From: Spirochaetaceae bacterium
GTDB lineage: Bacteria > Spirochaetota > Spirochaetia > Treponematales > Treponemataceae
Length of the DNA stretch: 64,000 nt
Reading direction: 5' to 3'
NCBI GenBank assembly: GCA_017936665.1
Contig: JAGBFB010000037.1
Location: 1-64,000, forward strand
Part shown: positions 17,472 through 30,589 of the stretch, in pieces
How positions within the stretch are numbered: position 1 is the first letter of the stretch
Layout: each line of letters begins with the position of its first letter
Program-made: the position numbers and the translations under genes
Notes under the pieces: model-generated
The model's input: the letters and a program-made list of their open reading frames with translations, nothing else
What the model was told of the DNA's origin: nothing
Database searches by the model: none

Positions 17472-18344
17472 ATGAATTTATCAAATACAAAAGAAAGTAA
17501 ATTGCATTTTGGAATGCCAACTCTAATAGAATTAAATTCTCTAAAAGAAAATATAGAACTTTGCAAAAAATTAAAATTAAATTTCATCGAATTAAATATG
17601 AACATTCCTTTATTTTCTGTTTTAGGAATTGAAGATGAAAATAATTTTGAATTAAAAAAAATTATTGAAGAATTAAATTTTTATCAAAAGGAATTTGGAA
17701 TTTATTTTACAATTCATCTTGATGAAAATTTTAATTTTGCAGATTCAAATATTTATATTAAAAATGCATATTTAAAAACTTTAAAAGCTGTAATAAAAAA
17801 TTCTAAAAAAATAAATTGTCCAATAATAAATATGCATTTAAACAAAGGAATTTATTTTACTCTTCCAACCGAAAAAGTTTTTTTATTTGAAAAATATAAA
17901 GAAGAATTTAATAATTCCCTTGAAGAATTTATAAAATTTTGTAACTGTGAAATTTCTGATTCAAATATTTTTATTTCGATTGAAAATACAGATGGCTGGA
18001 CAGACTTTGAAAAAAAATCTATAGAAAAAATTTTAATGAACAAAAATTTTTCACTTACTTTTGATATTGGACATTCACAAGCTATTGGAAATATTGACCA
18101 AGATTTTATTTTAAAAAATAAATCAAAGTTAAAACATTTTCATATTCATGATGGAACTTTACCTAATGCAGCAACAAAGCAGTTTGGAAAAAATCACTTA
18201 CAACTTGGAACTGGAAATATAAATTTAAAAGAAAAAATTTATCTTGCAAAAGAAACAAATTCTAGATGTGTTATAGAAACTAAAACAGTTGAATCATTAG
18301 TAGAAAGTGTAAAATGGATAACAAAATCTCTTGACACTTTTTAA
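17472..18344 (+). CDS. Sugar-phosphate isomerase/epimerase-like TIM-barrel protein
   Basis: The 290-residue protein of the xylose-isomerase-like/AP-endonuclease 2 superfamily shows metal-site motifs in order: TIHLDENFN, NMHLNKG, IENTDGW, TFDIGHSQAIGN, HFHIHDG, HLQLGTGNI and VIETK. The substrate cannot be assigned. I prefer the ATG at 17472 to an upstream TTG at 17454; neither has a clear ribosome site. Its end lies next to the TrmB promoter, which starts before its stop codon. Confidence 0.8.
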   Translation: MNLSNTKESKLHFGMPTLIELNSLKENIELCKKLKLNFIELNMNIPLFSVLGIEDENNFELKKIIEELNFYQKEFGIYFTIHLDENFNFADSNIYIKNAYLKTLKAVIKNSKKINCPIINMHLNKGIYFTLPTEKVFLFEKYKEEFNNSLEEFIKFCNCEISDSNIFISIENTDGWTDFEKKSIEKILMNKNFSLTFDIGHSQAIGNIDQDFILKNKSKLKHFHIHDGTLPNAATKQFGKNHLQLGTGNINLKEKIYLAKETNSRCVIETKTVESLVESVKWITKSLDTF

Positions 18345-18388
18345 AACCCTTTGTACTGTTTAAATAGTAGTTCTTTTTAGAACTACAT
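18331..18388 (+). promoter_or_regulatory. Promoter of the TrmB-like gene with 24-bp operator (site 1)
   Basis: TTGACA (18331-18336), 17 bases, TACTGT (18354-18359), 5 bases, then TAGTAGTTCT-TTTT-AGAACTACAT (18365-18388). The inner 8 bp of each arm are perfectly complementary. The site sits over the expected transcription start, so a bound dimer should block initiation. The same operator with the same spacing recurs at ddh and at the Bro-N/lysA unit. Self-regulation by the gene downstream is inferred. Confidence 0.8.
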
Positions 18389-18409
18389 GTTTATCAAAAA
18401 GGAATTGTG

Positions 18410-19105
18410 ATGACTTCATCTTTAATAGAAAACTTAATCGCATTTAATCTTACTCGTCAAGAAGCTTTAATTTATATAGAATTTTTATCACATGGCGAAA
18501 TGTCTGGCTATGAAGTAGCAAAGGAAACAGGAATTTCTAGATCTAATGTTTATTCTGCTTTGCAAAGTCTTGCAGAAAAAGGAGCTCTTTATTTAATTGA
18601 AGGTGAAAGCACAAAATATACTCCAGTTCCTGTAAAAAATTTCTTGAAAAATACTATTTCTGAATTGCAAAAAAAAGCTAAGTTGATAGAAAAAGAAGCT
18701 CCAAAACAAAGGGAAAATAAAGAAGGCTATATTACAATTTTAGGTGCAAAAAATATTGAAAATAAAATTCGCCAAATGCTTGAAAACGCAAAAGAAAGAA
18801 TTTATTTTATGGCAGATAAAGAAATTTTATCTTGCTTTCAAAAAGAAATAGAGGATTTACTCCTTTCAGAAAAAAAAGTTGTTATCCTTTCTGATTTTGA
18901 TGATTTTTCAATGTTAAAGGGAATTATCTTTCATAAAACTCAAACAGAAGAAAATCAAATTCGCTTAATTGTAGATTCAAGTTTTGTTTTAACAGGAACG
19001 ATTTCTGGTAGCGAACACGACACTTGTCTTTACTCAGGACAACAAAATCTTGTTAATTTGATGAAAGAAGCTTTGAAAAATAAAATTGAGCTGTTGGGAA
19101 GATAA
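18410..19105 (+). CDS. TrmB-family transcriptional regulator; proposed repressor of lysine/DAP genes
   Basis: The 231-residue protein has an N-terminal winged helix (residues 1-80): LTRQEALIYIEFLSHGEMSGYEVAKETGISRSNVYSALQSL, then EGESTKYTPVP, the signature of TrmB regulators. A coiled-coil dimer region (about 85-105) and a PLD-like C-terminal effector domain follow. The ATG at 18410 fits the AAAAGGA ribosome site better than a GTG three bases upstream. Known TrmB proteins mostly sense sugars. Here the shared operator at this gene, ddh and the lysA unit suggests control of lysine/DAP synthesis. Confidence 0.85.
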   Translation: MTSSLIENLIAFNLTRQEALIYIEFLSHGEMSGYEVAKETGISRSNVYSALQSLAEKGALYLIEGESTKYTPVPVKNFLKNTISELQKKAKLIEKEAPKQRENKEGYITILGAKNIENKIRQMLENAKERIYFMADKEILSCFQKEIEDLLLSEKKVVILSDFDDFSMLKGIIFHKTQTEENQIRLIVDSSFVLTGTISGSEHDTCLYSGQQNLVNLMKEALKNKIELLGR

Positions 19106-19191
19106 ATTCTTCCAAAGTATCAATTGGAAACAAATGTTATTGCAAGAGACTCTATGCAATCTTAAAATTGTAATTCTCATGAAGACCAGAA

Positions 19192-19503
19192 TTACTTAGT
19201 AGTATCAATCTGCTCTATAAACATATCTATCTCATTGGAAATGCGTTGCATAAGTGATGCTTTCTCTCTAACTATATGCTCTTTTTTCTGATTTGAAACT
19301 GAAAATAATTCTATCGTGTCCATTTGAAGTGCCTCAGCAAGTTTTTCTATCATTTCAACGGATGGAAATTGTCTCTCTGCTTCAATCTTGGAAATATAGT
19401 TGGCAGCACTCCCTGTTTTTTCGGCGAGGTCTATTTGTGAAAGTCCAAGTTCTTTGCGGCGAAACTTCATATTGTAGGATAAAACAGTTCTTATATTTGT
19501 CAT
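19192..19503 (-). CDS. XRE-family helix-turn-helix regulator
   Basis: In this 103-residue protein, residues 10-65 form a lambda-repressor-type HTH (RRKELGLSQIDLAEKTGSAANYISKIEAERQFPSVEMIEKLAEALQM), followed by a short helical tail. It is divergent from the lipoprotein gene at 19659, sharing a 155-base regulatory gap. Two other XRE-lipoprotein pairs occur within 11 kb. It probably controls itself and its neighbour; no convincing palindrome was found in this gap. Confidence 0.85.
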   Translation of the reverse strand: MTNIRTVLSYNMKFRRKELGLSQIDLAEKTGSAANYISKIEAERQFPSVEMIEKLAEALQMDTIELFSVSNQKKEHIVREKASLMQRISNEIDMFIEQIDTTK

Positions 19504-19562
19504 ATTTCACACTATTAAGTATAATTAATAATAAAACCATATGTTATTCAATCAAATAGGTA

Positions 19563-19591
19563 TTTACAACAATCTTATAATGCTATATAAT
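19563..19591 (+). promoter_or_regulatory. Strong promoter of the 19659 lipoprotein gene
   Basis: TTTACA (19563-19568) and TATAAT (19586-19591) are 17 bases apart. Transcription would start near 19598, downstream of an in-frame ATG at 19590. This supports translation from 19659, behind TTGGAGG. Confidence 0.7.
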
Positions 19592-19658
19592 GAAAAAAAA
19601 TATAAAAAATAGACTTATTAGGTTTGTTTTTTATAAAATATGCCTATTTGGAGGAATT

Positions 19659-20972
19659 ATGATGGAAATGAAAAAAAAGGGATGCAGAAATTTGATTTTT
19701 GCAATGATTACTTTGGGGCTTGTCGTTCTGATAGCAGGATGTCAAACAATGATACCTGTATCTTATACAGAACCAGCACGGGTAAACATGAGCGGAATTA
19801 GCAAAATCGGACTTATTACTAATGATTCTAGTGCGGGGGCAATGGTTTCTGATGCACTCACAAATACAGGAAAATACACAGTTGTTCCTGGTGAGTCTGA
19901 AATTAACAGGTATAAAGCATGGCAAGATTTGCGAGATTATTATGATAATGCAATAGAAGTAAAGGCCGCTGACTTAGTAAGTGCGTACAGTTCGAATGCA
20001 ATTCGGGCAAATTCTACTTACGAAGAAGAAACTCTTATAGTACACGGTACTATTAGTGACTTTCAAGAAAATGCTATCAGACTTGGAGTTGGTAATGACT
20101 CAGTTGATGTATATATTCTACCTTCAGAAAGAGAAAAAGCTGCTTCTCTTGAAAAAGGTGCAAATGTTACTATTATAGGTGAATGTTATGGGCTTAAGGC
20201 TCCTGATTTAAAAGATACTGGTGAAATTTTACGAATTTTAGGTGGTGGTCAACATGTCAATATTGCAGGTGCATCGTTTTATGCTCCACCAGGAGAATAT
20301 ACATCTAGCATTGATGCATTTCTATACTTAAATACATCTTCATCTGACAAAGTTGAGTCAAAGAAAGAAAAACGTGCCAAGAAAAATTCAGAAGGCAAAA
20401 CTGTAGTAGATGCTGATGGAAATATTGTTTACAAAGAAATAACTTTATACCGCCGAGTTGCTGATGTAACAGCAGGTTTCAAAGTTGAAAATTTAAGTGG
20501 AAAAGTTATTGGAAAAGGAAACTACTCTCAAGGTCAATCAACTAGTTATTATGAAAACAAGGATGAAATGCCAAATGTTTCAACTCTTGTAGAAACTGCA
20601 AAGAGAAAAATACTTCCAAACATTATTAGCGATATGGTGCCAACAGAACGTACAGTTAATGTGGTACTTGAAAAATCAGACAGTAAGGATCAAAGTGTAA
20701 AAGCTGCAATGAAAGAGGCAAAAAAACTTGTCGATGCAAAGAATTATGCTGCAGCCGCAAACGCGTATGGTAAAATATATGCTGAGACAAAAGATTTTGC
20801 TGCTGGATATAACCAAGCAATTTTAACAGAAGTGGCTAAAAATACAGATGAAGCTATTGTTTTGATGCAGGCTCTTGCAGTAAGTAGTAAAAATACAAAA
20901 GCACAAAATATGCTTAAAGAAATGAATAGTCGTAGTGCTAAAAACAAACAATCAGCCGAACAGGTTAAATAA
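19659..20972 (+). CDS. Lipoprotein with C-terminal TPR-like segment, function unknown
   Basis: The 437-residue protein has a lipoprotein signal ending LIAGC (Cys 28). The N-terminal domain (SGISKIGLITNDSSAGAMVSDALTNTGKYTVV) resembles the opening of CsgG/LPP20-like secretion or anchoring lipoproteins that build a strand around a predicted DNA-like loop, but similarity is weak. Residues about 345-425 form repeated helices (KKLVDAKNYAAAANAYGKIYAETKDFAAGYNQA), TPR-like and probably for protein binding. It is monocistronic, with a terminator at 21048, and divergent from an XRE regulator. Confidence 0.8.
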   Translation: MMEMKKKGCRNLIFAMITLGLVVLIAGCQTMIPVSYTEPARVNMSGISKIGLITNDSSAGAMVSDALTNTGKYTVVPGESEINRYKAWQDLRDYYDNAIEVKAADLVSAYSSNAIRANSTYEEETLIVHGTISDFQENAIRLGVGNDSVDVYILPSEREKAASLEKGANVTIIGECYGLKAPDLKDTGEILRILGGGQHVNIAGASFYAPPGEYTSSIDAFLYLNTSSSDKVESKKEKRAKKNSEGKTVVDADGNIVYKEITLYRRVADVTAGFKVENLSGKVIGKGNYSQGQSTSYYENKDEMPNVSTLVETAKRKILPNIISDMVPTERTVNVVLEKSDSKDQSVKAAMKEAKKLVDAKNYAAAANAYGKIYAETKDFAAGYNQAILTEVAKNTDEAIVLMQALAVSSKNTKAQNMLKEMNSRSAKNKQSAEQVK

Positions 20973-21047
20973 TAAAAAAGTTCATCAGAATTATGTGAAA
21001 GATTGAAGTGGTTTTGTAAAATCTTTTGTAATTTTGAGTGAATTATA

Positions 21048-21079
21048 GGAACTTAGCAATCTGGCTAAGTTCCTTTTTT
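21048..21079 (+). terminator. Rho-independent terminator after the 19659 lipoprotein gene
   Basis: GGAACTTAGC (21048-21057) pairs perfectly with GCTAAGTTCC (21064-21073), followed by six T. Confidence 0.93.
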
Positions 21080-21154
21080 AATATAGAATAGAATTAAGAA
21101 GATAATTGTCTATTTTGAAAAGTAAAACTGAGACAGTGCTAAAAATTTTTCTAC

Positions 21155-21191
21155 TTGACAATACGTATATTGTGTAATATTTTATACGTAT
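21155..21191 (+). promoter_or_regulatory. VapBC-like promoter with two ATACGTAT boxes; transcript probably leaderless
   Basis: TTGACA (21155-21160), 17 bases, TATTTT (21178-21183). The 8-bp palindrome ATACGTAT occurs at 21161-21168 inside the spacer and at 21184-21191, overlapping the start codon at 21190. The two are 23 bp apart, about two helical turns, fitting autorepression by the antitoxin-toxin complex. The predicted start of transcription falls at or next to the A of the ATG, and no ribosome site precedes it. Confidence 0.7.
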
Positions 21192-21447
21192 GAGTATTGA
21201 TTCAAAACTTACATTAAAATTAAATACTAATTCTATTCTCAAAGCAAAAAAATATGTATCTGAACGTGGAATTTCACTTTCAAAACTTGTTGAGGATTTT
21301 TTCGAAAATATTACTTCTGATTCTTATATTGCTGAAAATACTTCTTATTCACCTTTGGTAAAAGAACTTGCAGGAATTATTTCAATTCCTGATGATTATG
21401 ATTATAAAGTTGATTATGAAAATTATTTAAAGGAAAAATATGAATAA
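21190..21447 (+). CDS. Antitoxin, DUF6364/ribbon-helix-helix type
   Basis: This 85-residue protein has an N-terminal LTLKLNTNSILKAKKYVSERGISLSKLVEDFFENI, the ribbon-helix-helix pattern of DUF6364 antitoxins. The C-terminal part (SPLVKELAGIISIPDDYDYKVDYENYLKEKYE) is the usual toxin-neutralising tail. It overlaps the PIN gene by eight bases, as in type II toxin-antitoxin operons. Confidence 0.88.
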   Translation: MSIDSKLTLKLNTNSILKAKKYVSERGISLSKLVEDFFENITSDSYIAENTSYSPLVKELAGIISIPDDYDYKVDYENYLKEKYE

Positions 21448-21862
21448 GGTTTTTGTGGATTCTGATGTAATATTAGATTTGTTAGCACAACGTATTCCTC
21501 ATTTTCATTTTTCTGCTTTGTTATTTACATTTGCTGATATGAAAAAATTGGAATTATATACTTCTCCAACAGTTTTTTGTAATGTATTTTATATTTTAAG
21601 AAAACAAATTGGAATTGAAAAAGCAAAGGCTGCCTTAAGAAAATTACGACTTATAGTAAATATTATTGATACTTCAGAAAAAACAATTGACTGTGCATTA
21701 AATTCCGATTTTTCTGATTTTGAAGATGCAATTCAATGTTATACTGCACAAAGCCATCAAATTTCAATAATAATAACAAGAAATATAAAAGACTATAAAA
21801 ATTCAGTAGTTGTTGTTCAAAATCCTGAAAGTTTTTTGTTTTCTTCTGGGTTACTTACATAA
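21440..21862 (+). CDS. PIN-domain toxin (VapC-like ribonuclease)
   Basis: The 140-residue PIN protein opens MNKVFVDSDVILDLLAQR with the first catalytic Asp residues. It has a central FCNVFYILRK and ends with SDFSDFEDAIQCYTAQ and ITRNIKDYKNS, which carry the remaining acidic metal ligands. PIN toxins cleave RNA, often tRNA or rRNA. It is paired with the DUF6364 antitoxin upstream. All four acidic positions appear intact. Confidence 0.9.
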   Translation: MNKVFVDSDVILDLLAQRIPHFHFSALLFTFADMKKLELYTSPTVFCNVFYILRKQIGIEKAKAALRKLRLIVNIIDTSEKTIDCALNSDFSDFEDAIQCYTAQSHQISIIITRNIKDYKNSVVVVQNPESFLFSSGLLT

Positions 21863-21896
21863 CTTTTATATATTTAGACAAGCAAAATTTTCCCAC

Positions 21897-21954
21897 TTGA
21901 CAAAAATCAACTATCATTGTAATTTTATTATAGTAGTACTAAATAGAACTACTA
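21897..21954 (+). promoter_or_regulatory. ddh promoter with TrmB-type 24-bp operator (site 2)
   Basis: TTGACA (21897-21902), 17 bases, TAATTT (21920-21925), 5 bases, then TAGTAGTACT-AAAT-AGAACTACTA (21931-21954), a palindrome with one mismatch in 10-bp arms. Spacing from -10 to operator is identical to sites 1 and 3. The ddh ATG follows 36 bases later, behind GGAGGAAAT. Confidence 0.82.
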
Positions 21955-21990
21955 AGTATTACAAATAACCGATTTGTTTACGGAGGAAAT

Positions 21991-22980
21991 ATGAAAATTG
22001 GAATTTTAGGATATGGAAATCTTGGCAAGGGAGTTGAATGTGCTATCAAACAAAATCCAGATTGTAGTCTTGTGGCAGTTTTTACACGTCGCGACCCTTC
22101 AAGCGTAAAACTTTTAACAGACGGTGTTCCTGTTGTAAAAGTTGATGATATTTTGTCTTACAAAGATAAAATTGATGTATTAATTATCTGTGGAGGAAGT
22201 GCAACAGACCTTCCAAAACAGACTCCTGAATATGCAAAATATTTTAACGTAATTGATAGTTTTGACACTCACGCAAAAATCCCAGAGCATTTTGCAAATG
22301 TAGATTCTTCTGCAAAAGCAAGTGGAAAAACAGCTTTAATTAGTGCTGGTTGGGATCCTGGAATGTTTAGCCTAGCACGTCTTTACTCAAACGCAATTTT
22401 GCCAAATGGAAAGGATTATACTTTCTGGGGAAAAGGGGTTAGTCAAGGACATTCAGATGCAATTCGTCGGATTAGCGGAGTAAAAAATGCAAAGCAATAT
22501 ACAATCCCAGTTGAGTCTGCTTTGGATTCAGTTCGCAATGGAGAAAATCCTGAACTTACTACTCGGCAAAAACATACTCGAGAATGTTTTGTTGTTTTAG
22601 AAGATGGTGCAACAGAATCAGATAAAGTTCGCGTTGAAAAAGAAATTAAAGAAATGCCAAACTACTTTGCCGACTACGACACAACTGTAAACTTTATTAG
22701 CGAAGAAGAATTGCTCAAAAACCATTCAGGTATTCCACACGGAGGATTCGTTTTTAGAACAGGCAAAACTGGCTGGAACAAGGAATTTGACAATGTAATT
22801 GAGTACAGTTTAAAACTTGATTCAAATCCAGCTTTTACTTCAAGTGTAATCGTAGCTTACGCTCGTGCAGTTTTTAGAATGAACAAAGAAGGCATGACAG
22901 GCTGTAAAACAGTTTTTGACGTGCCACCAGCTTACCTAACAACCATGAGCGACGAAGAAATTAGAGCCCATTTGTTGTAG
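21991..22980 (+). CDS. ddh: meso-diaminopimelate dehydrogenase
   Basis: The 329-residue enzyme has an N-terminal NADPH fold MKIGILGYGNLGKGVECAI, then VFTRRDPSSVK, IDVLIICGGSATDLP, SFDTHAKIPEH, SAGWDPGMFSLARLY and FWGKGVSQGHSDAIRRI, all signature segments of DAP dehydrogenase. It makes meso-DAP from tetrahydrodipicolinate, NADPH and ammonia in one step, bypassing the succinylase/acetylase routes. LysA at 27443 can then decarboxylate meso-DAP to lysine. Its promoter carries the shared operator. Confidence 0.95.
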   Translation: MKIGILGYGNLGKGVECAIKQNPDCSLVAVFTRRDPSSVKLLTDGVPVVKVDDILSYKDKIDVLIICGGSATDLPKQTPEYAKYFNVIDSFDTHAKIPEHFANVDSSAKASGKTALISAGWDPGMFSLARLYSNAILPNGKDYTFWGKGVSQGHSDAIRRISGVKNAKQYTIPVESALDSVRNGENPELTTRQKHTRECFVVLEDGATESDKVRVEKEIKEMPNYFADYDTTVNFISEEELLKNHSGIPHGGFVFRTGKTGWNKEFDNVIEYSLKLDSNPAFTSSVIVAYARAVFRMNKEGMTGCKTVFDVPPAYLTTMSDEEIRAHLL

Positions 22981-22983
22981 TTT

Positions 22984-23030
22984 TGACTACGCTTCCTGAC
23001 CGCAGCCGAAGGACAACTACCAAGCTCTCT
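22984..23030. repeat. REP-like scrap downstream of ddh
   Basis: The GACTACGCTT block here recurs at 45731-45740, each time in a short GC-richer stretch with a CAGCCGAAGG- or CTTCGG-type partner. It looks like remains of a dispersed palindromic repeat. No gene is present. Confidence 0.3.
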
Positions 23031-23086
23031 CTAGTTCCTGTCTACAATTAACTTTTTGATGAATAACTAGATTTGTGATATAAAGA

Positions 23087-23118
23087 AAGCCCCCAAAGTT
23101 TACAAACCTTGGAGGCTT
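23087..23118. terminator. Bidirectional terminator between ddh and a convergent lipoprotein gene
   Basis: A long imperfect stem pairs AAGCCCCCAAAGTTT (23087-23101) with AAACCTTGGAGGCTT (23104-23118). On the minus strand a TTTCTTTAT tract follows, so it mainly ends the 23153 gene, and it may also serve ddh. Confidence 0.75.
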
Positions 23119-23152
23119 ATTATAAAAACTAATTCGAATAACTATAATATAT

Positions 23153-24577
23153 TTACCAATATTTCACTATATATTCGCCAGAATCTGTTTTGTAGCAATA
23201 GCGATCAATACCATTCTCACTAACAACAGCTGTAAAACGAACATCATTATTTGAATCTTTCATAGTTACAGTATTACCGTCTACAGAATAAGTTCCTCTG
23301 TATAGTTCGGTTCCAGTGCCACTGCCATCGCAAACAACACATTCGTTGTTTTCGTTAAAAAAAATTTCACAAATTCTAGTCCATTCAAAACCATCATACA
23401 CTTGAAAGCTACTGAAGTAATAATCTGTTTCTTGTTTTTTTATAAGGTTTGTTATATGTGAGTGTGATGAGTCATACATTCCAAGAACATCATATTGAAT
23501 TTCATCCTCTGTATAGAAAAGATCCTCTTCCCACTTAAAGTTATATCCGTTAATGGATAAGTCGTAGATATTGTAGTTATTGTCGTATACCACACCAGCT
23601 TGTCCTGAAGAATTAAGTGGTGTTCTATCTGTAAAAGGTGAAGGTTGTGTTGAATAACTTCCATCAGCATTAAAGGTAATAGTTTCTAAATCTGGTGCAA
23701 CCCAAGTTCCTTCAAATTGAGCAATATATTCTTGTTCGCTAGGGAACGAAATAGATTGAGGGTAGCTACCTATAGAAGAACCAATAGGAACTTCTTTTGC
23801 ATAACGATAAATACAATATGGTTCATTATTAGCGGCTCTTCCTAAATTATGATATTCACAATGAATAATAATTGAAGAAACAGAAAAAGTCTTACCAATG
23901 GTATTTTCATTTAGAGGCATTTTTGCAGGAGAAAGCCAACCAGTATAAGACCCTATAGAAACAGGATAACTACCATTGTCTTCTACCCCATATTTAATTA
24001 CTAAATAACAATCTGAGTTGTCATTGTCCCCGATTTCAAAGTTTTTTTCTGGCATGTTTATCCAATTTGGCTCATCTTTGTCTTCATCAAAAGTCCATTT
24101 AAACGAATGATGTTCCTTATCCCATGCTAAGTTAATGTCTGTTACATAAGTATTTGCGAAGTCGTCCTTTTTTTCAATTCCTTCTGGAACATCAACAGTT
24201 AATACCTGTGATTCACAAAGTGCGTTAGAAGTAACAAAGGAAACTGTGTAGTTATAGGATTTTCCTGCATTTACGTAATAATCTTTAATTACATGTTGTC
24301 CTGCTGCAAGTTCTTGACCTTCAAACATTGAATAGTCAATATAGTCGCTAGCTCCTAACAGCATATCACCCCTATCTACCACTATACTGTAAACACCTTC
24401 TGGAATATCAACGTAAATAGCTACGTAACCTGATTGCTCATTTACATATTCCCCTGAAATTGTAATCGTTTTCTCGTCCGACTCATACTTGTTAGAGGTG
24501 TTTATATCCTCACACCCTGTAAAAAATCCTACGCACAAAATTATTGCCAATGCAAACAACTTAAAAATTTTCTTCAT
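23153..24577 (-). CDS. Lipoprotein of unknown function
   Basis: The 474-residue protein has signal MKKIFKLFALAIILCVGFFTGC (Cys 22). Residues 35-130 look like an immunoglobulin-like beta domain (TITISGEYVNEQSGYVAIYVDIPEGVYSIVV). The last part has repeated FxGTWxxP...ITFNADGSYS and GTYSVDGNTVTMKD units, as seen in lipocalin-like lipoproteins. No family is firmly recognised. It is divergent from the XRE gene at 24686, with a palindrome between them, and has its own terminator. Confidence 0.8.
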   Translation of the reverse strand: MKKIFKLFALAIILCVGFFTGCEDINTSNKYESDEKTITISGEYVNEQSGYVAIYVDIPEGVYSIVVDRGDMLLGASDYIDYSMFEGQELAAGQHVIKDYYVNAGKSYNYTVSFVTSNALCESQVLTVDVPEGIEKKDDFANTYVTDINLAWDKEHHSFKWTFDEDKDEPNWINMPEKNFEIGDNDNSDCYLVIKYGVEDNGSYPVSIGSYTGWLSPAKMPLNENTIGKTFSVSSIIIHCEYHNLGRAANNEPYCIYRYAKEVPIGSSIGSYPQSISFPSEQEYIAQFEGTWVAPDLETITFNADGSYSTQPSPFTDRTPLNSSGQAGVVYDNNYNIYDLSINGYNFKWEEDLFYTEDEIQYDVLGMYDSSHSHITNLIKKQETDYYFSSFQVYDGFEWTRICEIFFNENNECVVCDGSGTGTELYRGTYSVDGNTVTMKDSNNDVRFTAVVSENGIDRYCYKTDSGEYIVKYW

Positions 24578-24618
24578 AATATACCTCGTATAAAATAAAA
24601 TTTTTACTTAAATTATAC

Positions 24619-24646
24619 ACCTATTACTAAATATTTAGCAATAGGT
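24619..24646. promoter_or_regulatory. 28-bp palindrome between lipoprotein and XRE regulator genes
   Basis: ACCTATTACTAAAT (24619-24632) is followed directly by ATTTAGCAATAGGT (24633-24646), with one mismatched pair. It is centred in the 108-base divergent gap, the expected place for an operator of the regulator at 24686. The binding partner is inferred. Confidence 0.6.
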
Positions 24647-24685
24647 ATCTGTAAAATTTTAGTTATTACTAAGAAAATTATAATT

Positions 24686-25012
24686 ATGAGTATCGATTTT
24701 TATGCTATAGGTCAGCGAATTCAAAAGAAACGCAAATCCCAAAACAAAACCCAAGAAAGTCTTGCAGAAGCAATTTCTGTTACTGTTGGATATGTTAGTC
24801 AAATTGAACGAGGAATCACAAAAATAAATCTGGAGACACTTTCACATATTGCAGATTATTTGAATTGTGATATCACTGAATTTTTATCTGATACAGTAAA
24901 AATGTCAAAAAATTATCTTTCGGAAGAATTTTCATCAATCATAAAAAAATTAAATCCAAAGAATCGTCAAATCTTAATTGAAATTGCAGAAGTTTTGCAG
25001 AAAAATCAATGA
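24686..25012 (+). CDS. XRE-family helix-turn-helix regulator
   Basis: In this 108-residue protein, residues 6-65 form the HTH (IGQRIQKKRKSQNKTQESLAEAISVTVGYVSQIERGITKINLETLSHIADYLN), followed by a helical tail that may dimerise. It is one of three XRE genes here that sit divergently beside a lipoprotein gene. The ribosome site is weak. Its end lies three bases from the end of a convergent membrane gene. Confidence 0.87.
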   Translation: MSIDFYAIGQRIQKKRKSQNKTQESLAEAISVTVGYVSQIERGITKINLETLSHIADYLNCDITEFLSDTVKMSKNYLSEEFSSIIKKLNPKNRQILIEIAEVLQKNQ

Positions 25013-25015
25013 GAT

Positions 25016-25489
25016 TTATCTTTTCGTGTTCAATATTGAAATTGCGATATGACAAGGTGCAAAGATTATAGCAAAAATAATTAATAAAATAGATTGGCTT
25101 ATAATTCCACTGAATAAAAATATGATAGATGGAATTACTGAAAGAGAAATTCCTCTAAATAGATTGTTTTTTCTAAAATGAGTTATCCAAATTAAGCAGT
25201 AGAAAAAAATTAAAATTCCGTTTATTATAAGATAAATTCTAAAAGAAAAATTAGAAGAAAATCCAAAGTAAGTTCCTGAAATGTTAAACATCATACAAGC
25301 AAAACATCCGTAACGACCGATTTGCTCAAAAGTTTCTATTATTTTCCAAAACTTAGTTTGTGGTAGTTTAACAAAATTTTCTTTACACTTTATAGCGTAG
25401 ATAATATTCGGAATCATTATTAAGATCATAAAAATTAAACCGAATGGATTAAAAAAAGTATTGTTGTCAAAAAAAATTTGTTGTGTCAT
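25016..25489 (-). CDS. Small integral membrane protein, unknown
   Basis: The 157-residue protein has about four or five hydrophobic helices (GLIFMILIMIPNIIYAI, YLIINGILIFFYCLIWI, SVIPSIIFLFSGII, ILLIIFAIIFAPCHIAI). No motif is recognised. An AGGAAAG ribosome site precedes the ATG. It is convergent with the XRE gene and 88 bases downstream of the GGDEF gene. Confidence 0.65.
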   Translation of the reverse strand: MTQQIFFDNNTFFNPFGLIFMILIMIPNIIYAIKCKENFVKLPQTKFWKIIETFEQIGRYGCFACMMFNISGTYFGFSSNFSFRIYLIINGILIFFYCLIWITHFRKNNLFRGISLSVIPSIIFLFSGIISQSILLIIFAIIFAPCHIAISILNTKR

Positions 25490-25576
25490 AAAACATCTTT
25501 CCTATGATAAATTTAATTTCAAAAAAATTTGATTCTATAATCTGTAAAGTTAAAAATATTTATACTAAATTGCCTT

Positions 25577-26662
25577 TTACTTACTACAAGAATCTAAATC
25601 ACTTTTTTCATAAATAACTTGATTTCTTCCTAATTCTTTTCCTTTATATAAAAGTAAATCTGCTTTTTTTAATATTAAATTAAGTGAGGTTTCTTTTTGA
25701 TAAAATGAAATTCCTGCAGTAATAGTAATTTTAATTTTTTTATTATCATATTCAATGTTACAATTTTCAACTGTTTTTCTAAGATTTTCAAAAACTTGAA
25801 TAATATCATCTTTGGAACAATCGTATTCATTTAAAATTAAAAATTCTTCTCCGCCCCAACGACAAACAGAAACTTTTGAATTTTCAAAATTATGATTTTT
25901 AAGGACTTCTGCAATTTTTGTTAAAACTTTATCTCCTGCATCATGACCATAGGAATCATTTACTTTTTTAAAATAATCAATATCAATCATAGCAACAACA
26001 AGATTTTTATTATTCTCTGAATTAATAATTTCTTCAAGAATTTCCATCATTTTTCTACGATTAAAAAGTCCTGTTAGCGAATCATTTTCTGCTACATAAC
26101 GCAATTCTTTTTCAAGTTTACATACTGTTGTTGCATAAATTACCATGTATAAAGAGACAAAAAAGAATGTTAATATGGTATTAATTAAAAATATACCTCG
26201 TACAATTACAGTGTTTTCAATTACATAAATTGGTGCATGATGATAAGTCCAAAGTCTAAATCCGATGTAGAGCAACATATTAAATATTCCCACCGCAATA
26301 GAATTTTTACTTACTCGTTCCATTTTGTTTAAATAGAAATCACAGAAAAATATTGTAACGGTGAATGAGATACAATAATATTGAAACCCCATTTCCCAGC
26401 CAAGAAAAAAAAGAGATGCGAGCATAAAAATATATAATTCAATAAATGCGATAAGTGCATATTGTTTTATTTTATGTTGTTTAAGACAAATAAAAGCTAA
26501 TAAACATAATGTAATATTTACTAAGTTTACATAAAAAAGTATATCAATATTGAAATAACTAAAAATACATGAAAATACAATATGACATGAAATTAGAATA
26601 GAATTAACAATATATATTTTTTGGGAAACATATTTTTTTGCAGAAATTTCTTTATTTTTCAT
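25577..26662 (-). CDS. Membrane diguanylate cyclase (GGDEF domain)
   Basis: The 361-residue protein has about six membrane helices (residues 12-190), then a GGDEF domain: NDSLTGLFNRRKMMEIL, DIDYFKKVNDSYGHDAGDKVL and the catalytic WGGEEFLIL. GGEEF is a functional variant. No RxxD inhibitory site lies before it, so product inhibition may be absent. It makes cyclic di-GMP, the substrate of the HD-GYP protein at 8822. Confidence 0.9.
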   Translation of the reverse strand: MKNKEISAKKYVSQKIYIVNSILISCHIVFSCIFSYFNIDILFYVNLVNITLCLLAFICLKQHKIKQYALIAFIELYIFMLASLFFLGWEMGFQYYCISFTVTIFFCDFYLNKMERVSKNSIAVGIFNMLLYIGFRLWTYHHAPIYVIENTVIVRGIFLINTILTFFFVSLYMVIYATTVCKLEKELRYVAENDSLTGLFNRRKMMEILEEIINSENNKNLVVAMIDIDYFKKVNDSYGHDAGDKVLTKIAEVLKNHNFENSKVSVCRWGGEEFLILNEYDCSKDDIIQVFENLRKTVENCNIEYDNKKIKITITAGISFYQKETSLNLILKKADLLLYKGKELGRNQVIYEKSDLDSCSK

Positions 26663-26708
26663 AACATAAAAATTATATCATAACAAAATTTTAATTACAA
26701 TTAATAAA

Positions 26709-27419
26709 TCACCACTGATAAATTTCTCCTTTCATAATTGCATTGAACATTTTTTCTTTTGCCTGATGATTTTCTTTTTGAATTTGATGAAGAAGTTTTT
26801 TTACGGATTCACGTTTCGTATTCTTATCAAAGGGACAAGGATTTTTTACACTTTGCAAATTCATTTTATTTTGAAATCCGATTATGTCTTTTTCAGGAAT
26901 ATAAATCAGTGGACGAATTACTGTGATATCTGCTTCTTCAAAATATTTTACAGGTGGAAAAGAAAAAAATTGTCCTTCGTACAAAAGTGAAAGTAACATT
27001 GTTTCTATAAAATCATCTTTGTGATGTGCGTAGGCAATTTTATTGCAACCTAATTCTTTTGCAAAATTATTTAAAGCACCTTTTCGCATTTTTGCACAAA
27101 GAGAACAAAAACTTCCTTCTTTGATTTTTGCTTTTAATACATCTGCAATTTGTGTTTTTACAACGTGATATTCAATCTCAAGTTTTTTGCAAAGTCCTTT
27201 TACACTTTCAGTTTGAAATTCCCCAAAACCTAAATCTACAGTAACTGCTACAAGTTGAATTTTTTCTGGAATAAATTTTTGTAATCCCGTTAAAGCGTAA
27301 AGCAAAGCAAGGGAATCTTTACCTCCAGAAACACCGATAGCAATTTTATCTCCATCTTGAATCATTCGAAAATCATTTATTGCTTGTCGGGTGTAACTGA
27401 AAAGTTTTTGCAAAGTCAT
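26709..27419 (-). CDS. TtcA-like tRNA 2-thiolation ATPase (PP-loop)
   Basis: The 236-residue protein has PP-loop SGGKDSLALLYAL near residue 31, then the CSLC pair near residue 105 and a third Cys in NPCPF near 194, the cysteine pattern of TtcA-group enzymes that hold an Fe-S cluster. AHHKDDFIETMLL is the conserved downstream motif. TtcA thiolates cytidine 32 of tRNA; relatives act on other tRNA positions, so the exact target is not certain. It lies 23 bases downstream of lysA and is likely co-transcribed. Confidence 0.85.
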   Translation of the reverse strand: MTLQKLFSYTRQAINDFRMIQDGDKIAIGVSGGKDSLALLYALTGLQKFIPEKIQLVAVTVDLGFGEFQTESVKGLCKKLEIEYHVVKTQIADVLKAKIKEGSFCSLCAKMRKGALNNFAKELGCNKIAYAHHKDDFIETMLLSLLYEGQFFSFPPVKYFEEADITVIRPLIYIPEKDIIGFQNKMNLQSVKNPCPFDKNTKRESVKKLLHQIQKENHQAKEKMFNAIMKGEIYQW

Positions 27420-27442
27420 ATTTTTTACAAACTAGGATAATA

Positions 27443-28711
27443 TTAAAACAAATTCATCAAATCTTCGATGGTTTCTTTGCGGCGGATTTGTTTTACTTTT
27501 CCGTTGGCACAAATCATAACTTCGGCTGGGCGTGGGCGGCTGTTATAGGTTGAACACATGCTCCATCCGTAGGCGCCAGTGTCGAGGACGCAAAGTAGGT
27601 CACCTTCTTCAATTTTTGGGAGTAGGCGATTTTTTGCTAGGATGTCTCCTGATTCGCAAATATTTCCTGTTACGGTTTGTTCGGTTAAATCAGCTTCATT
27701 TCGGGAAACAAGCTCTCCATCTCGGAAAACTTCAATATCGTGGTGGGAATCGTACATGCTTGGGCGAACGAGAACGTTCATACCAATGTCTGAACCTGCA
27801 AATTGGATTCCAGAATTTTCTTTTGTGGCGTGGACTCTGCCTAAAATCACGCTGCCTTCTGCAACACAGAATCGGCCTGGTTCGCTTTTGAAAAGTGGGG
27901 CTTTCCCGTAACTTGCAACGAATTCGTCTAGGATTGGCTCTAGGCGGGATTTGAAATCTTCCATTGGGAAGTCTTTTTCGTCATCAAGTTTGTGATAGGG
28001 GATTCCATAGCCGCCTCCAAAGTCGATAAATTCTAGGTTTTTGAATTGGTGAGCGATTCTTAAAAGATTTGTAACGGCGTCTAAATATGGTTGTGGATCC
28101 ATAAAAAGTGAGCCAATGTGTTGGTTGATTCCAGCAATGGTGATTTGGTATTTTTCTGCAATTTCAAAAATTTGTGGGATTGAATATTCAGCAATACCGA
28201 ATTTTGTTTTTTTGCCACCGGTAACAACTTTTTCGTGGTGTCCAGCTCCAACTCCAGGATTTATGCGAACGGCACATTTTCTTTTTGCTGGTGGAATTTC
28301 CATTTGATTACAAACTTCACCAAAAAGTTCTAGTTGGCTCAAAGAGTCTAGGCTTGTCATAACTCCGTTTTTTAGGGCGAATGCTAATTCGTAGGGTGCA
28401 ACATTGTTTGGCACGAAGAAAATTCTTTCCACTGGGAAACCTGCTTTCATCAAAAGAGTGATTTCCCCAACGCTCATGGCATCGCAGTTTAGGCCTTCTT
28501 CTAGGGCAAGTTTTAGAATGTGGATATTTGTGTTTGCTTTTACAGAGTAGTTTGCGGTGTAAGGATATTTTGTAATAACTTTGGCAACTTTTGCCATTCT
28601 GTCCCGTAAGATTTTTTCGTTATAAACATAAACTGGAGTTCCGTACTCAGAGGCGATGGTTTCAGGATTGTTTCCTGAAAAAAAGTCTGTGTTTTGGATA
28701 AAAGATGTCAT
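27443..28711 (-). CDS. lysA: Diaminopimelate decarboxylase
   Basis: This 422-residue PLP enzyme of the alanine-racemase-like fold has the PLP-binding Lys in YSVKANTN near residue 57. HIGSLFMDP, IDFGGGYGIPYH and the C-terminal CESGDILAKNRLLP and GAYGWSMCSTYNSRPRP follow. It converts meso-DAP to L-lysine, completing the route begun by ddh. An ATAGGAG site precedes the ATG. It lies 41 bases after the Bro-N gene, whose promoter carries operator site 3, so the two are probably one unit. GC content looks higher than that of its neighbours. Confidence 0.95.
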   Translation of the reverse strand: MTSFIQNTDFFSGNNPETIASEYGTPVYVYNEKILRDRMAKVAKVITKYPYTANYSVKANTNIHILKLALEEGLNCDAMSVGEITLLMKAGFPVERIFFVPNNVAPYELAFALKNGVMTSLDSLSQLELFGEVCNQMEIPPAKRKCAVRINPGVGAGHHEKVVTGGKKTKFGIAEYSIPQIFEIAEKYQITIAGINQHIGSLFMDPQPYLDAVTNLLRIAHQFKNLEFIDFGGGYGIPYHKLDDEKDFPMEDFKSRLEPILDEFVASYGKAPLFKSEPGRFCVAEGSVILGRVHATKENSGIQFAGSDIGMNVLVRPSMYDSHHDIEVFRDGELVSRNEADLTEQTVTGNICESGDILAKNRLLPKIEEGDLLCVLDTGAYGWSMCSTYNSRPRPAEVMICANGKVKQIRRKETIEDLMNLF

Positions 28712-28752
28712 TTTGTGGCTCCTATTTTATTTTTCTGAAATTGATTCAGAAT

Positions 28753-29592
28753 TTATTTATCTTCTATAGATTTGTTGTTGATTTCTAATGCAAGTTTATC
28801 TTTTGCATTTAGTTCAGAAACAACTTTTAATCCTGTTTCCTTTTCGTATTCTTCTTTTGCTGAATTTGCAACTTTACCACCTCTTATGGCAACTTTGCGA
28901 TTTTCTTCAAAAGTTTCTGGTTCTTCTTGCTTGGAAATTGCTGTAGAAGTAACTTCTGCAAGCATATTTAAAACCAATTCTATGTTTGTCATATTATCTC
29001 TTAGATTTTCTTTCTTCAAGCCTTTTTTTTCTTTATATTCTTTTACAGTTAAGCCACTCCAAGCTTTTGTCATTTCGTTTGTTAAAATTGCATAATCTTT
29101 TTCACTTTCGATTCCACGTTTTTTCCATTCATCTGTAAGTTCTTTCCGCATCTCGATTGTTTGCAATCTTTGATTAATCCAGCCTTCTGTATATCCTTTT
29201 GCTCTATAATAATCAGCACCTCGAAGAATTGCTTTTTCTGGATCTGCAATTTCATCTAAACGTTCACTACCAACTTTTGCAAGCCACATTTTAAATGGCT
29301 CGGCTTTAGGAGATGGCACAGATTGAACAAGGCGTAAAATTCCTTTTGTATCAAGCACATCTGTTAGACGCATTTTTCCATCAGCGGCCAGTAGTTTCAA
29401 CTGGTTACAATTTGTAACCACTTCACTTCCTTCTTTTGCTAATCGATGTTTTAGAACTTTCCAATAATCCCGTGGATTTTCACTTTCGGTTAAGATTTCT
29501 ATGACATCAATAACTGAAAAGAACCAATCTTCTGTTTCTTCATTCCAAGCTGTGCGAACTTTTTTGTTTTCAAAAACTTTTATTTTGTTCAT
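28753..29592 (-). CDS. Bro-N domain protein (phage antirepressor-like), first gene of the lysA unit
   Basis: The 279-residue protein has an N-terminal Bro-N domain (FENKKVRTAWNEETEDWFFSVIDVIEILTESENPRDYWKVLKHRL...MRLTDVLDTKGILRLVQSVPSPKAEPFKMWLAKV), a DNA-binding fold common in prophage antirepressors. A charged helical C-terminal part follows (ILRGADYYRAKGYTEGWINQRLQTI). The chosen ATG follows AGAGGGA; an in-frame ATG lies 15 bases upstream. No prophage genes surround it. Its placement between operator site 3 and lysA is odd and suggests it was captured or has a regulatory role. Confidence 0.85.
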   Translation of the reverse strand: MNKIKVFENKKVRTAWNEETEDWFFSVIDVIEILTESENPRDYWKVLKHRLAKEGSEVVTNCNQLKLLAADGKMRLTDVLDTKGILRLVQSVPSPKAEPFKMWLAKVGSERLDEIADPEKAILRGADYYRAKGYTEGWINQRLQTIEMRKELTDEWKKRGIESEKDYAILTNEMTKAWSGLTVKEYKEKKGLKKENLRDNMTNIELVLNMLAEVTSTAISKQEEPETFEENRKVAIRGGKVANSAKEEYEKETGLKVVSELNAKDKLALEINNKSIEDK

Positions 29593-29669
29593 AAATCCCT
29601 CTAGCATTTATTATAGCACAGTATCTAGAATGATACAATACAAAAGTATAGGTATTACGTGATATTTTT

Positions 29670-29727
29670 TAGTAGTTCTATTTAGTACTACTAGGTTTAG
29701 TTTATAGGAGATGTGAAGTAGTGTCAA
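29670..29727 (-). promoter_or_regulatory. Promoter of the Bro-N/lysA unit with TrmB-type operator (site 3)
   Basis: On the minus strand: TTGACA (29727-29722), 17 bases, TAAACT (29704-29699), 5 bases, then TAGTAGTACT-AAAT-AGAACTACTA (29693-29670). On that strand the 24-bp site is identical to site 2 at ddh. The geometry equals that of sites 1 and 2. The Bro-N start lies about 77 bases further on. Confidence 0.82.
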
Positions 29728-29733
29728 GAGGGG

Positions 29734-30078
29734 CTATTTTGTATATTCACGAAGAGTTGATTCAACTAGATTTCTGATACTTTGAACTACGGAATGACTT
29801 AAATCTGTGTCTAATTCTTTTGAGGGAAATCCTGAATCTTTTTCTGGAAAAAAAAGTTTGAAAATATCTATTTCTAGTGCGGTTGTAATTTTTGATAAAG
29901 TTTTGTCGCTAGGCCAAAGTCGTTTACTTTCAATGCTGTTAATGGTTTGTTCAGAAATATTTGCCTTTTCTGCTAATTCAAATTGGGATAAACCTTTTTC
30001 TTTGCGAATATTTTTCAAATTATTTGATAGACGACTTTTTATGTCCAACTCTTCCATATAAAAAAAAGTATTACGCAT
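29734..30078 (-). CDS. XRE-family helix-turn-helix regulator
   Basis: In the 114-residue protein, residues 14-70 form the HTH (RLSNNLKNIRKEKGLSQFELAEKANISEQTINSIESKRLWPSDKTLSKITTALEI), with a tail predicted to be helical. It is divergent from a small lipoprotein gene; four copies of GTATT-N3-AATAC lie between. The ATG at 30078 itself sits in a related GCGTAATAC string and lacks a ribosome site. A TATAAT (30092-30087, minus strand) would give an almost leaderless message. An internal ATG at 30057 is the alternative. Confidence 0.85.
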   Translation of the reverse strand: MRNTFFYMEELDIKSRLSNNLKNIRKEKGLSQFELAEKANISEQTINSIESKRLWPSDKTLSKITTALEIDIFKLFFPEKDSGFPSKELDTDLSHSVVQSIRNLVESTLREYTK

Positions 30079-30096
30079 TTTGTCTTATTATAACAC

Positions 30097-30191
30097 ATAT
30101 TTATAATACAAAAATATATAAGATTTGTATTGACAATACTTAAAACTAATATTTATAATACAAGAAGATATATTATGCGTATTTATAATAC
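30097..30191. promoter_or_regulatory. Four operator copies and promoter in the XRE/lipoprotein gap
   Basis: Boxes fit GTATT-N3-AATAC: 30097-30109 (ATATTTATAATAC), 30127-30139 (GTATTGACAATAC), 30149-30161 (ATATTTATAATAC) and 30179-30191 (GTATTTATAATAC). Centres are 30, 22 and 30 bp apart. Box 2 overlaps a TTGACA at 30130-30135 and box 3 contains TATAAT (30154-30159), together making the rightward promoter. Bound regulator would cover -35, -10 and the start region of the lipoprotein gene. Confidence 0.75.
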
Positions 30192-30206
30192 GTAATGGAG
30201 GACAAA

Positions 30207-30589
30207 ATGAAAAGAAAATTTTTGGAATGATGATACTAGCTCTTTTGGTATTGTCATTTGGATTTTTGAGTTGTAAACAAGAAGTTAGTAATGATACTAA
30301 TGGTGGCGGAAATTCAAATCCCTTTATTGGAACTTGGATTTGCAATGCAGAAGGATTAAAATTTGAGTTTACAGAAAATCAATTCTTTGTAAAAGAACTG
30401 GATACTAATTCTATTGATGGATTTGGTGTTTGTTCATATAACGGGAATCTTGCAGAATTAGTTACCAGTGACGGAGAAATGTCAGGCACAGCTATGGTAA
30501 ATGGAAATTCCCTACAAATTACTATGAATGGATATGATGAAGAAGAAGGAAGAGAATATAGTCTGACCTATTATTGTACCAAACAATAA
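30207..30589 (+). pseudogene. Small lipoprotein gene with a one-base frameshift in its signal sequence
   Basis: A good GGAGG site precedes the ATG at 30207, but that frame stops after MKRKFLE. One extra T in the five-T run at 30219-30223 would give MKRKFFGMMILALLVLSFGFLSC, a normal lipoprotein signal, joined to the open frame that runs to 30589 (FIGTWICNAEGLKFEFTENQFFV...). The mature part resembles small lipocalin-like lipoproteins. As it stands, translation could start only at ATG 30227 without charged residues. It may be a phase-variable run, a decayed gene or a sequencing error. It is divergent from an XRE gene. Confidence 0.7.

Follow-up and report, generated by a model that had tools for sequence, protein, structure and literature searches.

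A predicted TrmB-family regulon for diaminopimelate and lysine genes in a Spirochaetaceae bacterium and its relatives

Do three separate promoters that carry the same dyad answer to the product of one of the genes behind them? The question is raised by a stretch of 64,000 nucleotides (nt) from a Spirochaetaceae bacterium (contig JAGBFB010000037.1, positions 1 to 64,000; this whole stretch is called the window below). The dyads precede a TrmB-family regulator gene (18407..19105, + strand), ddh, encoding meso-diaminopimelate (meso-DAP) dehydrogenase (21991..22980, +), and a unit made up of a Bro-N/DinD-like gene (28753..29607, -; PF02498) and lysA, encoding diaminopimelate decarboxylase (27443..28711, -). 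The preliminary description of the window saw in them a 24-base-pair (bp) palindrome through which the regulator would control itself and the DAP/lysine genes. The regulator promoter (18331..18359, +) has a TTGACA -35 box, a 17-nt spacer and a TACTGT -10 box; candidate operator 1 (TAGTAGTTCTTTTTAGAACTACAT; 18365..18388, +) lies 5 nt after the -10 box and 21 nt before the ATG at 18410. The ddh promoter (21897..21925, +; TTGACA, 17 nt, TAATTT) is followed by operator 2 (TAGTAGTACTAAATAGAACTACTA; 21931..21954, +), and the promoter of the lysA unit (29699..29727, -; TTGACA, 17 nt, TAAACT) by operator 3 (29670..29693, -), which also reads TAGTAGTACTAAATAGAACTACTA along transcription. The proposed geometry (TTGACA, 17 nt, a weak -10 box, 5 nt, the dyad) is thus exact at all three sites and operators 2 and 3 do read alike, but no copy is a perfect palindrome: the sites at 18365, 21931 and 29670 have 2, 1 and 1 mismatches to TAGTAGTTCT-N4-AGAACTACTA. 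In 100 dinucleotide shuffles of the window, no dyad of this kind appeared. When the pattern was relaxed a little, to TAGTAGTNCT-N4-AGNACTACTA, a scan of the whole genome (2,584,639 bases, 43 contigs, 99.2% complete) found only the three window sites within 2 mismatches (0, 0 and 2), and one further place at 3. With a matrix built from 25 regulator-upstream sites, the training set including neither the window sites nor those at ddh, lysA, dapF and gltB, operators 1 to 3 score 23.8, 35.4 and 35.4, against 6.7 for the next-best place in the window. The names given to the two enzymes are borne out by TIGR01921 (437 bits, cut-off 180.6) for Ddh and TIGR01048 (359 bits, cut-off 297.9) for LysA.

The family label of the regulator is likewise sound, as its chain of 231 amino acids (aa) scores 60 bits with PF01978, the TrmB winged helix-turn-helix (HTH), for which the curated cut-off is 25.6. 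The search with its AlphaFold model (predicted local distance difference test, pLDDT, 85.5; predicted template modelling score, pTM, 0.59) has 5bqt, 5bpi and 3qph in the top rows, consistent with the two-domain TrmB/TrmBL2 fold of an N-terminal winged HTH and a C-terminal PLD-like domain. PF11495 (Regulator_TrmB) reaches 19.6 bits, under its cut-off of 22.2, and the NCBIfam TrmB/TrmBL1 equivalogs remain far under theirs (NF047390, 51 bits against 650; NF040851, 34 against 600). The match to 2f5t_X (Z 13.6) covers model residues 106-222. The second C-terminal subdomain, the sugar-binding extension, is absent: structural alignment to 2f5t_X and 3qph stops at chain residues 232 and 229. The sugar contacts of TrmB are Asn305, Gly320 and Glu326 (PMC4158304). 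In the C-terminal part, D189, S190, T195, G196, D204, C206, L207, Y208 and S209 are invariant among 27 aligned sequences. HxK, the motif of PLD, was not seen in this part of the alignment, which makes a binding rather than a catalytic role likely for the domain. The regulator is a member of the TrmB superfamily, yet not a sugar-sensing TrmB.

The relationship between the regulator, the dyad and the lysine genes was studied in 195 genomes of the family. Orthologues were accepted at E < 1e-40 for the regulator (34 genomes) and E < 1e-30 for ddh (36 genomes; the matches of G119 and G017, at E 8e-5 and 3e-4, were left out), and the motif was defined by at most 2 mismatches (45 copies in 29 genomes). 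In the named collection, the 35 loci related to the regulator belong for the most part to metagenome assemblies of Treponema from gut and rumen. Regulator and motif occur together in 26 genomes (26 of the 29 with the motif; Fisher value 4e-22), regulator and ddh in 30 (4e-25), and motif and ddh in 28 (1e-25). Of the 30 genomes with both regulator and ddh, 26 arrange the two in tandem with lysA, and the dyad covers the operon start (lysA of G067 is cut by a contig end); the four others are the window genome, G039, G180 and G166. Of the 36 orthologue loci, 35 have a dyad in the 330 bp before the regulator, six of these dyads (L034, L238-L242) being diverged in form as judged by eye. The window genome, G039 and G180 have the three genes scattered, and there a dyad precedes each of the regulator, ddh and lysA, those at the G039 and G180 regulators being weak (scores 12.5 and 16.6). 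An operator of the regulator that moved along with the genes would leave just such separated genes, each with a dyad. As to placement, 42 of the 45 motif copies precede expected genes: the regulator (22), ddh (4), lysA (4), dapF (8) and gltB (4). The other three, in G064, G010 and G185, fall inside open frames; that of G010 (L114 4001-4024) has one mismatch to the operator and lies within a frame of 2608 aa. The regulator was not detected in three genomes with the motif: G131, where the contig ends 142 nt upstream of ddh, G081, which is 59% complete and has its dyad before ddh, and G064, with the site inside an open frame. A common predicted operator is thus found across species at the promoter of the regulator itself and at its targets, as in an autoregulated regulon, with G166 as the exception.

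Genomes without the regulator serve as controls. Six ddh genomes lack a detected regulator, of which G081 and G131 have motif copies. The other four (G040, G187, G076 and G009) show no dyad in the 3.6-6.5 kilobases read, the best score being 2.1, compared to 20-36 for the training sites; the ddh of G076 and G009 are just 46-47% identical. Among the three genomes of the same genus, G001 and G002 (74% and 87% complete) have neither a detected regulator nor the motif. At the other end of the divergence, five orthologue loci of about 37% identity carry a related dyad, TAGTGTTCC-N6-GGAACACTA or near, L240 having a right half of the window type; counted from the start of the TTGACA or TTGACT box, these dyads lie 23-24 nt downstream. 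The next frame directly downstream is one for LL-DAP aminotransferase (dapL) in G057, G079, G082 and G050, and lysA then dapL in G023. The best NCBIfam model of the dapL frames in G057, G079, G082 and G023, two of them cut, is LL-diaminopimelate aminotransferase, over its cut-off in G079 alone; that of G050 was identified by eye, and lysA of G023 reaches 265 bits, under the cut-off of 298. At the intermediate locus G034 (44% identity) the dyad is diverged and the downstream frame is FAD-type oxidoreductase-like by eye. The DAP/lysine pathway therefore looks like the stable target, around which the enzyme route and the operator letters vary. Gene order, co-occurrence, the absence controls and these related dyads support the predicted link between regulator, operator and lysine genes. 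The outcome that the preliminary description had named as speaking against its proposal, a motif frequent and unrelated to lysine genes, was not seen. By comparative evidence the regulon is supported as real, with binding of the operator by the regulator as its predicted basis, and the target set in relatives appears wider than had been claimed, extending to dapF-dapL and gltB.

Several observations weigh against this reading. In G166 the regulator is present and the only dyad is before lysA, with none before the regulator or ddh. A reversed control pattern has 43 copies in the 195 genomes, against 45 for the real one, but just 11 of its 36 genomes include the regulator (p = 0.024); since the raw count is no higher than the control, the case rests on placement. 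In a matrix-free dyad test, single upstream regions were mostly not significant, 9 of 36 having at least 9 of 10 pairs. The scores of the regulator-upstream sites are circular because the matrix was trained on them, and the Fisher values are overstated because the genomes are related and not independent trials. The orthologue cut of E < 1e-40 was fixed only after the matches had been seen; 49 genomes match at E <= 0.001, and none of the 15 that the cut drops carries the motif (two of these, G023 and G050, served as distant orthologues above). Finally, the position of the dyad at dapF and gltB is not repressor-like.

At the other targets it is. In all 33 assessable regulator promoters a TTGACA or TTGACT box precedes the dyad by 23-42 nt, and the dyad starts between 6 nt inside and 13 nt after the -10 box. 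In the genomes with scattered genes, the ddh and lysA promoters have it 4-6 nt after the -10 box. Bound at such a position, a protein would obstruct the polymerase. Sequence comparison supplies the sites and their geometry, shows that they are conserved together with the regulator and identifies the targets as DAP/lysine genes; from it we infer with good confidence a one-component system in which the product of the 18407-19105 gene, probably as a dimer, binds the 24-bp dyad. The bound regulator would cover the transcription start just past the -10 box and so repress itself, ddh and the lysA unit in this genome. Repression would set the flux from tetrahydrodipicolinate through meso-DAP to lysine, and the signal would most likely be lysine or DAP, sensed by the C-terminal PLD-like domain.

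The sites at dapF and gltB open another possibility. The -35 box starts 0 nt after the dyad at 8 of 8 dapF sites and overlaps it by 2 nt at three of the four gltB sites, the fourth (L193) being 31 nt from its -35 box. Abutting the -35 box is a placement seen more typically with activators, and one protein may therefore have both effects, repression at some genes and activation at others; in archaeal TrmBL1/Tgr, upstream binding activates and downstream binding represses (PMC10817205). It is conceivable, and in our view rather doubtful, that nitrogen status is what the regulator senses, and that it acts by position, with repression of the Ddh branch, which uses ammonia, and activation of the glutamate-using DapF-DapL branch together with glutamate synthase. 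In its favor, the dehydrogenase route demands more ammonium than the succinylase route (PMC6382763). A site was present in 4 of 20 gltB upstream regions from regulator-positive genomes and in 0 of 20 from regulator-negative ones; the former leave out the second copy of G067, the cut copy of G074 and the distant matches (at most 41%) of G034, G057 and G079, and the latter are the first 20 genomes in match-list order. For the dapF and gltB sites the matrix scan is a confirmation, the pattern search having found them beforehand. Yet 16 of the 20 regulator-positive gltB promoters have no site, nor do 7 of the 15 upstream regions of standalone dapF (one, in G047, regulator-negative; the cut G068 copy was left out), and the gltB site of L193 is out of place. 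A site abutting the -35 box could repress too. Moreover, a divergent promoter lies across from the dapF sites, toward carA, with its -35 box 6-54 nt away, and carA could be the target. Such a switch is impossible in the window genome, where no close dapL was found (best match 29%) and gltB gave no match. A tentative synthesis would be a position-dependent two-way switch between two meso-DAP routes, in which ddh-lysA is repressed, dapF-dapL and gltB are activated and the non-sugar PLD-like domain reads nitrogen or lysine status; the window genome would then be a reduced form that keeps the ddh-lysA arm only.

The leaders of gltB and dapF share, between promoter and start codon, a conserved hairpin and, after it, a T run (GGCAAAGAGGTCGTAGAT ... 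TCTACGRCCTCTTTTTT), with or without the regulator, and in one locus (L100) the hairpin precedes asnB. It was delimited in L178 (427-480), with homologous places in L100, L102-L104, L106, L179-L187, L191, L192, L199, L200, L204, L205, L207-L209, L213, L216, L218-L221, L225, L227 and L231. With up to 3 mismatches allowed, its seed is found in 17 of 20 and 14 of 20 gltB regions and in 12 of 15 dapF regions, and one hairpin folds at -40.4 kcal/mol (z -8.0). It has no Rfam match in 11 loci and looks like an attenuator of a nitrogen regulon. As for dapF itself, contig C36 of the window genome (L243 2384-6556, -) has DapF fused to the C-terminus of CarB in one frame of 1390 aa, CarB being recognized by eye; DapF matches lie inside frames of about 1400 aa in many genomes of the family, and elsewhere dapF adjoins carA.

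Repression through the dyad by the TrmB-type protein has further competitors. Another DNA-binding protein could bind the dyads, for instance the product of one of the XRE genes at 19192-19503 and 29734-30078, the latter of which stands directly upstream of site 3, as in the relative L115; similarly, a GntR-like frame adjoins the lysA site of G166. The XRE neighbors are disfavored by the dyad tracking the TrmB-type gene, which it precedes in nearly all loci, and besides L115 no XRE frame was seen by a site in lists of open reading frames of at least 90 aa, inspected by eye and not systematically. Binding by such a protein is very unlikely. A shade less probable still, the dyads could work as hairpins in the RNA, at the 5' end of each message, with a role in stability or attenuation. 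All three window dyads are downstream of the -10 box and would be at least partly transcribed, but the eight dapF dyads and three of the four gltB dyads are upstream of or over the -35 box, hence outside the transcript, for which reason we reject this explanation; nor did the window yield an Rfam match. Chance palindromes in AT-rich DNA, for which only the equal frequency of the reversed pattern speaks, are refuted by the shuffles, the placement of the dyads and their association with the regulator, and can be given next to no credence.

Whether lysA still obeys its operator in the organism of the window is a separate matter. The preliminary description had joined the Bro-N gene and lysA in one unit, and the Bro-N gene does sit between site 3 and lysA, but it is an inserted passenger, extra with respect to L115 (G039, another genus). 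The identity of window positions 28501-30300 to L115 is 97% across 633 positions; for the first 211 of lysA it is 96%. In L115, lysA lies 20 nt past the operator (28 nt in G166); in place of 19 nt the window has 28712-29668, an inserted Bro-N/DinD-like cassette that separates operator 3 from the start codon of lysA and fits exactly between the two. The inserted stretch carries a possible second promoter (29610..29638, -; TTGTAT, 17 nt, TGC-TATAAT with an extended -10), seen by eye and not called by the promoter scan, its -35 box matching just 3 of 6 positions. lysA may consequently escape part of the control here. Between the window genome and G039, LysA is 97% identical, Ddh 92% and enolase 66%, which suggests a recent transfer of lysA with its operator between genera; the stretch probably transferred spans an XRE gene, the operator and the lysA start. 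Directly upstream of the ddh promoter, a short reading frame and a PIN-domain gene (21440; PF13470) occupy 21190-21862 and resemble a toxin-antitoxin pair, the antitoxin role being assigned from position alone.

If bench work bears it out, the proposed repression would be a way of controlling lysine production that has not been described. A bacterial TrmB-type protein gains a target set, a predicted operator and candidate ligands, and the scattered genomes offer an example of an operon breaking up while every fragment bears the predicted operator. For spirochetes of rumen and gut, control of DAP and lysine has a bearing on the economy of cell wall and amino acids. The suggestion that a TrmB-type control of these genes is new agrees with the open-access literature, where searches found no TrmB-family lysine/DAP regulator and none described in spirochetes, most subscription papers being outside this coverage. 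The lysine (L-box) riboswitch controls lysine genes, the same kind of targets. It is RNA-based, and a riboswitch was set aside here, as no Rfam match at gathering thresholds was obtained in the window, its leaders included, or in the 11 dapF/gltB loci. The view of TrmB proteins as mainly sugar sensors fits the sugar-sensing members but is too narrow, for archaeal TrmB proteins also control amino-acid genes, trp operons among them in the haloarchaeal TrmB (PMC10817205, PMC9426492). TK0271/Tar of Thermococcus, which controls aromatic amino-acid genes from a palindrome (PMC6737238), is not used as a precedent, its TrmB membership not being established. With archaeal TrmBL1/Tgr/TrmB, where operator position is reported to decide between activation and repression (PMC10817205), the window regulator shares the PF01978 winged HTH and a palindromic operator. 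It differs in its length (231 aa against about 340), in its lack of the sugar-binding C-terminal subdomain, in matching the NCBIfam TrmB models far under cut-off, and in a system of sigma-70-like promoters with DAP/lysine targets. The best whole-chain structural match is TrmBL2 (PDB 5BQT, 5BOX, 5BPI; VIA-align Z 15.6 over 216 residues), with a root-mean-square deviation of 19.4 that we attribute to a different setting of the two domains (5bpi_D gives 6.9). TrmBL2 likewise has no sugar-binding part and is described as a chromosomal protein (PMC4158304), whereas the window regulator has three specific predicted sites in its genome.

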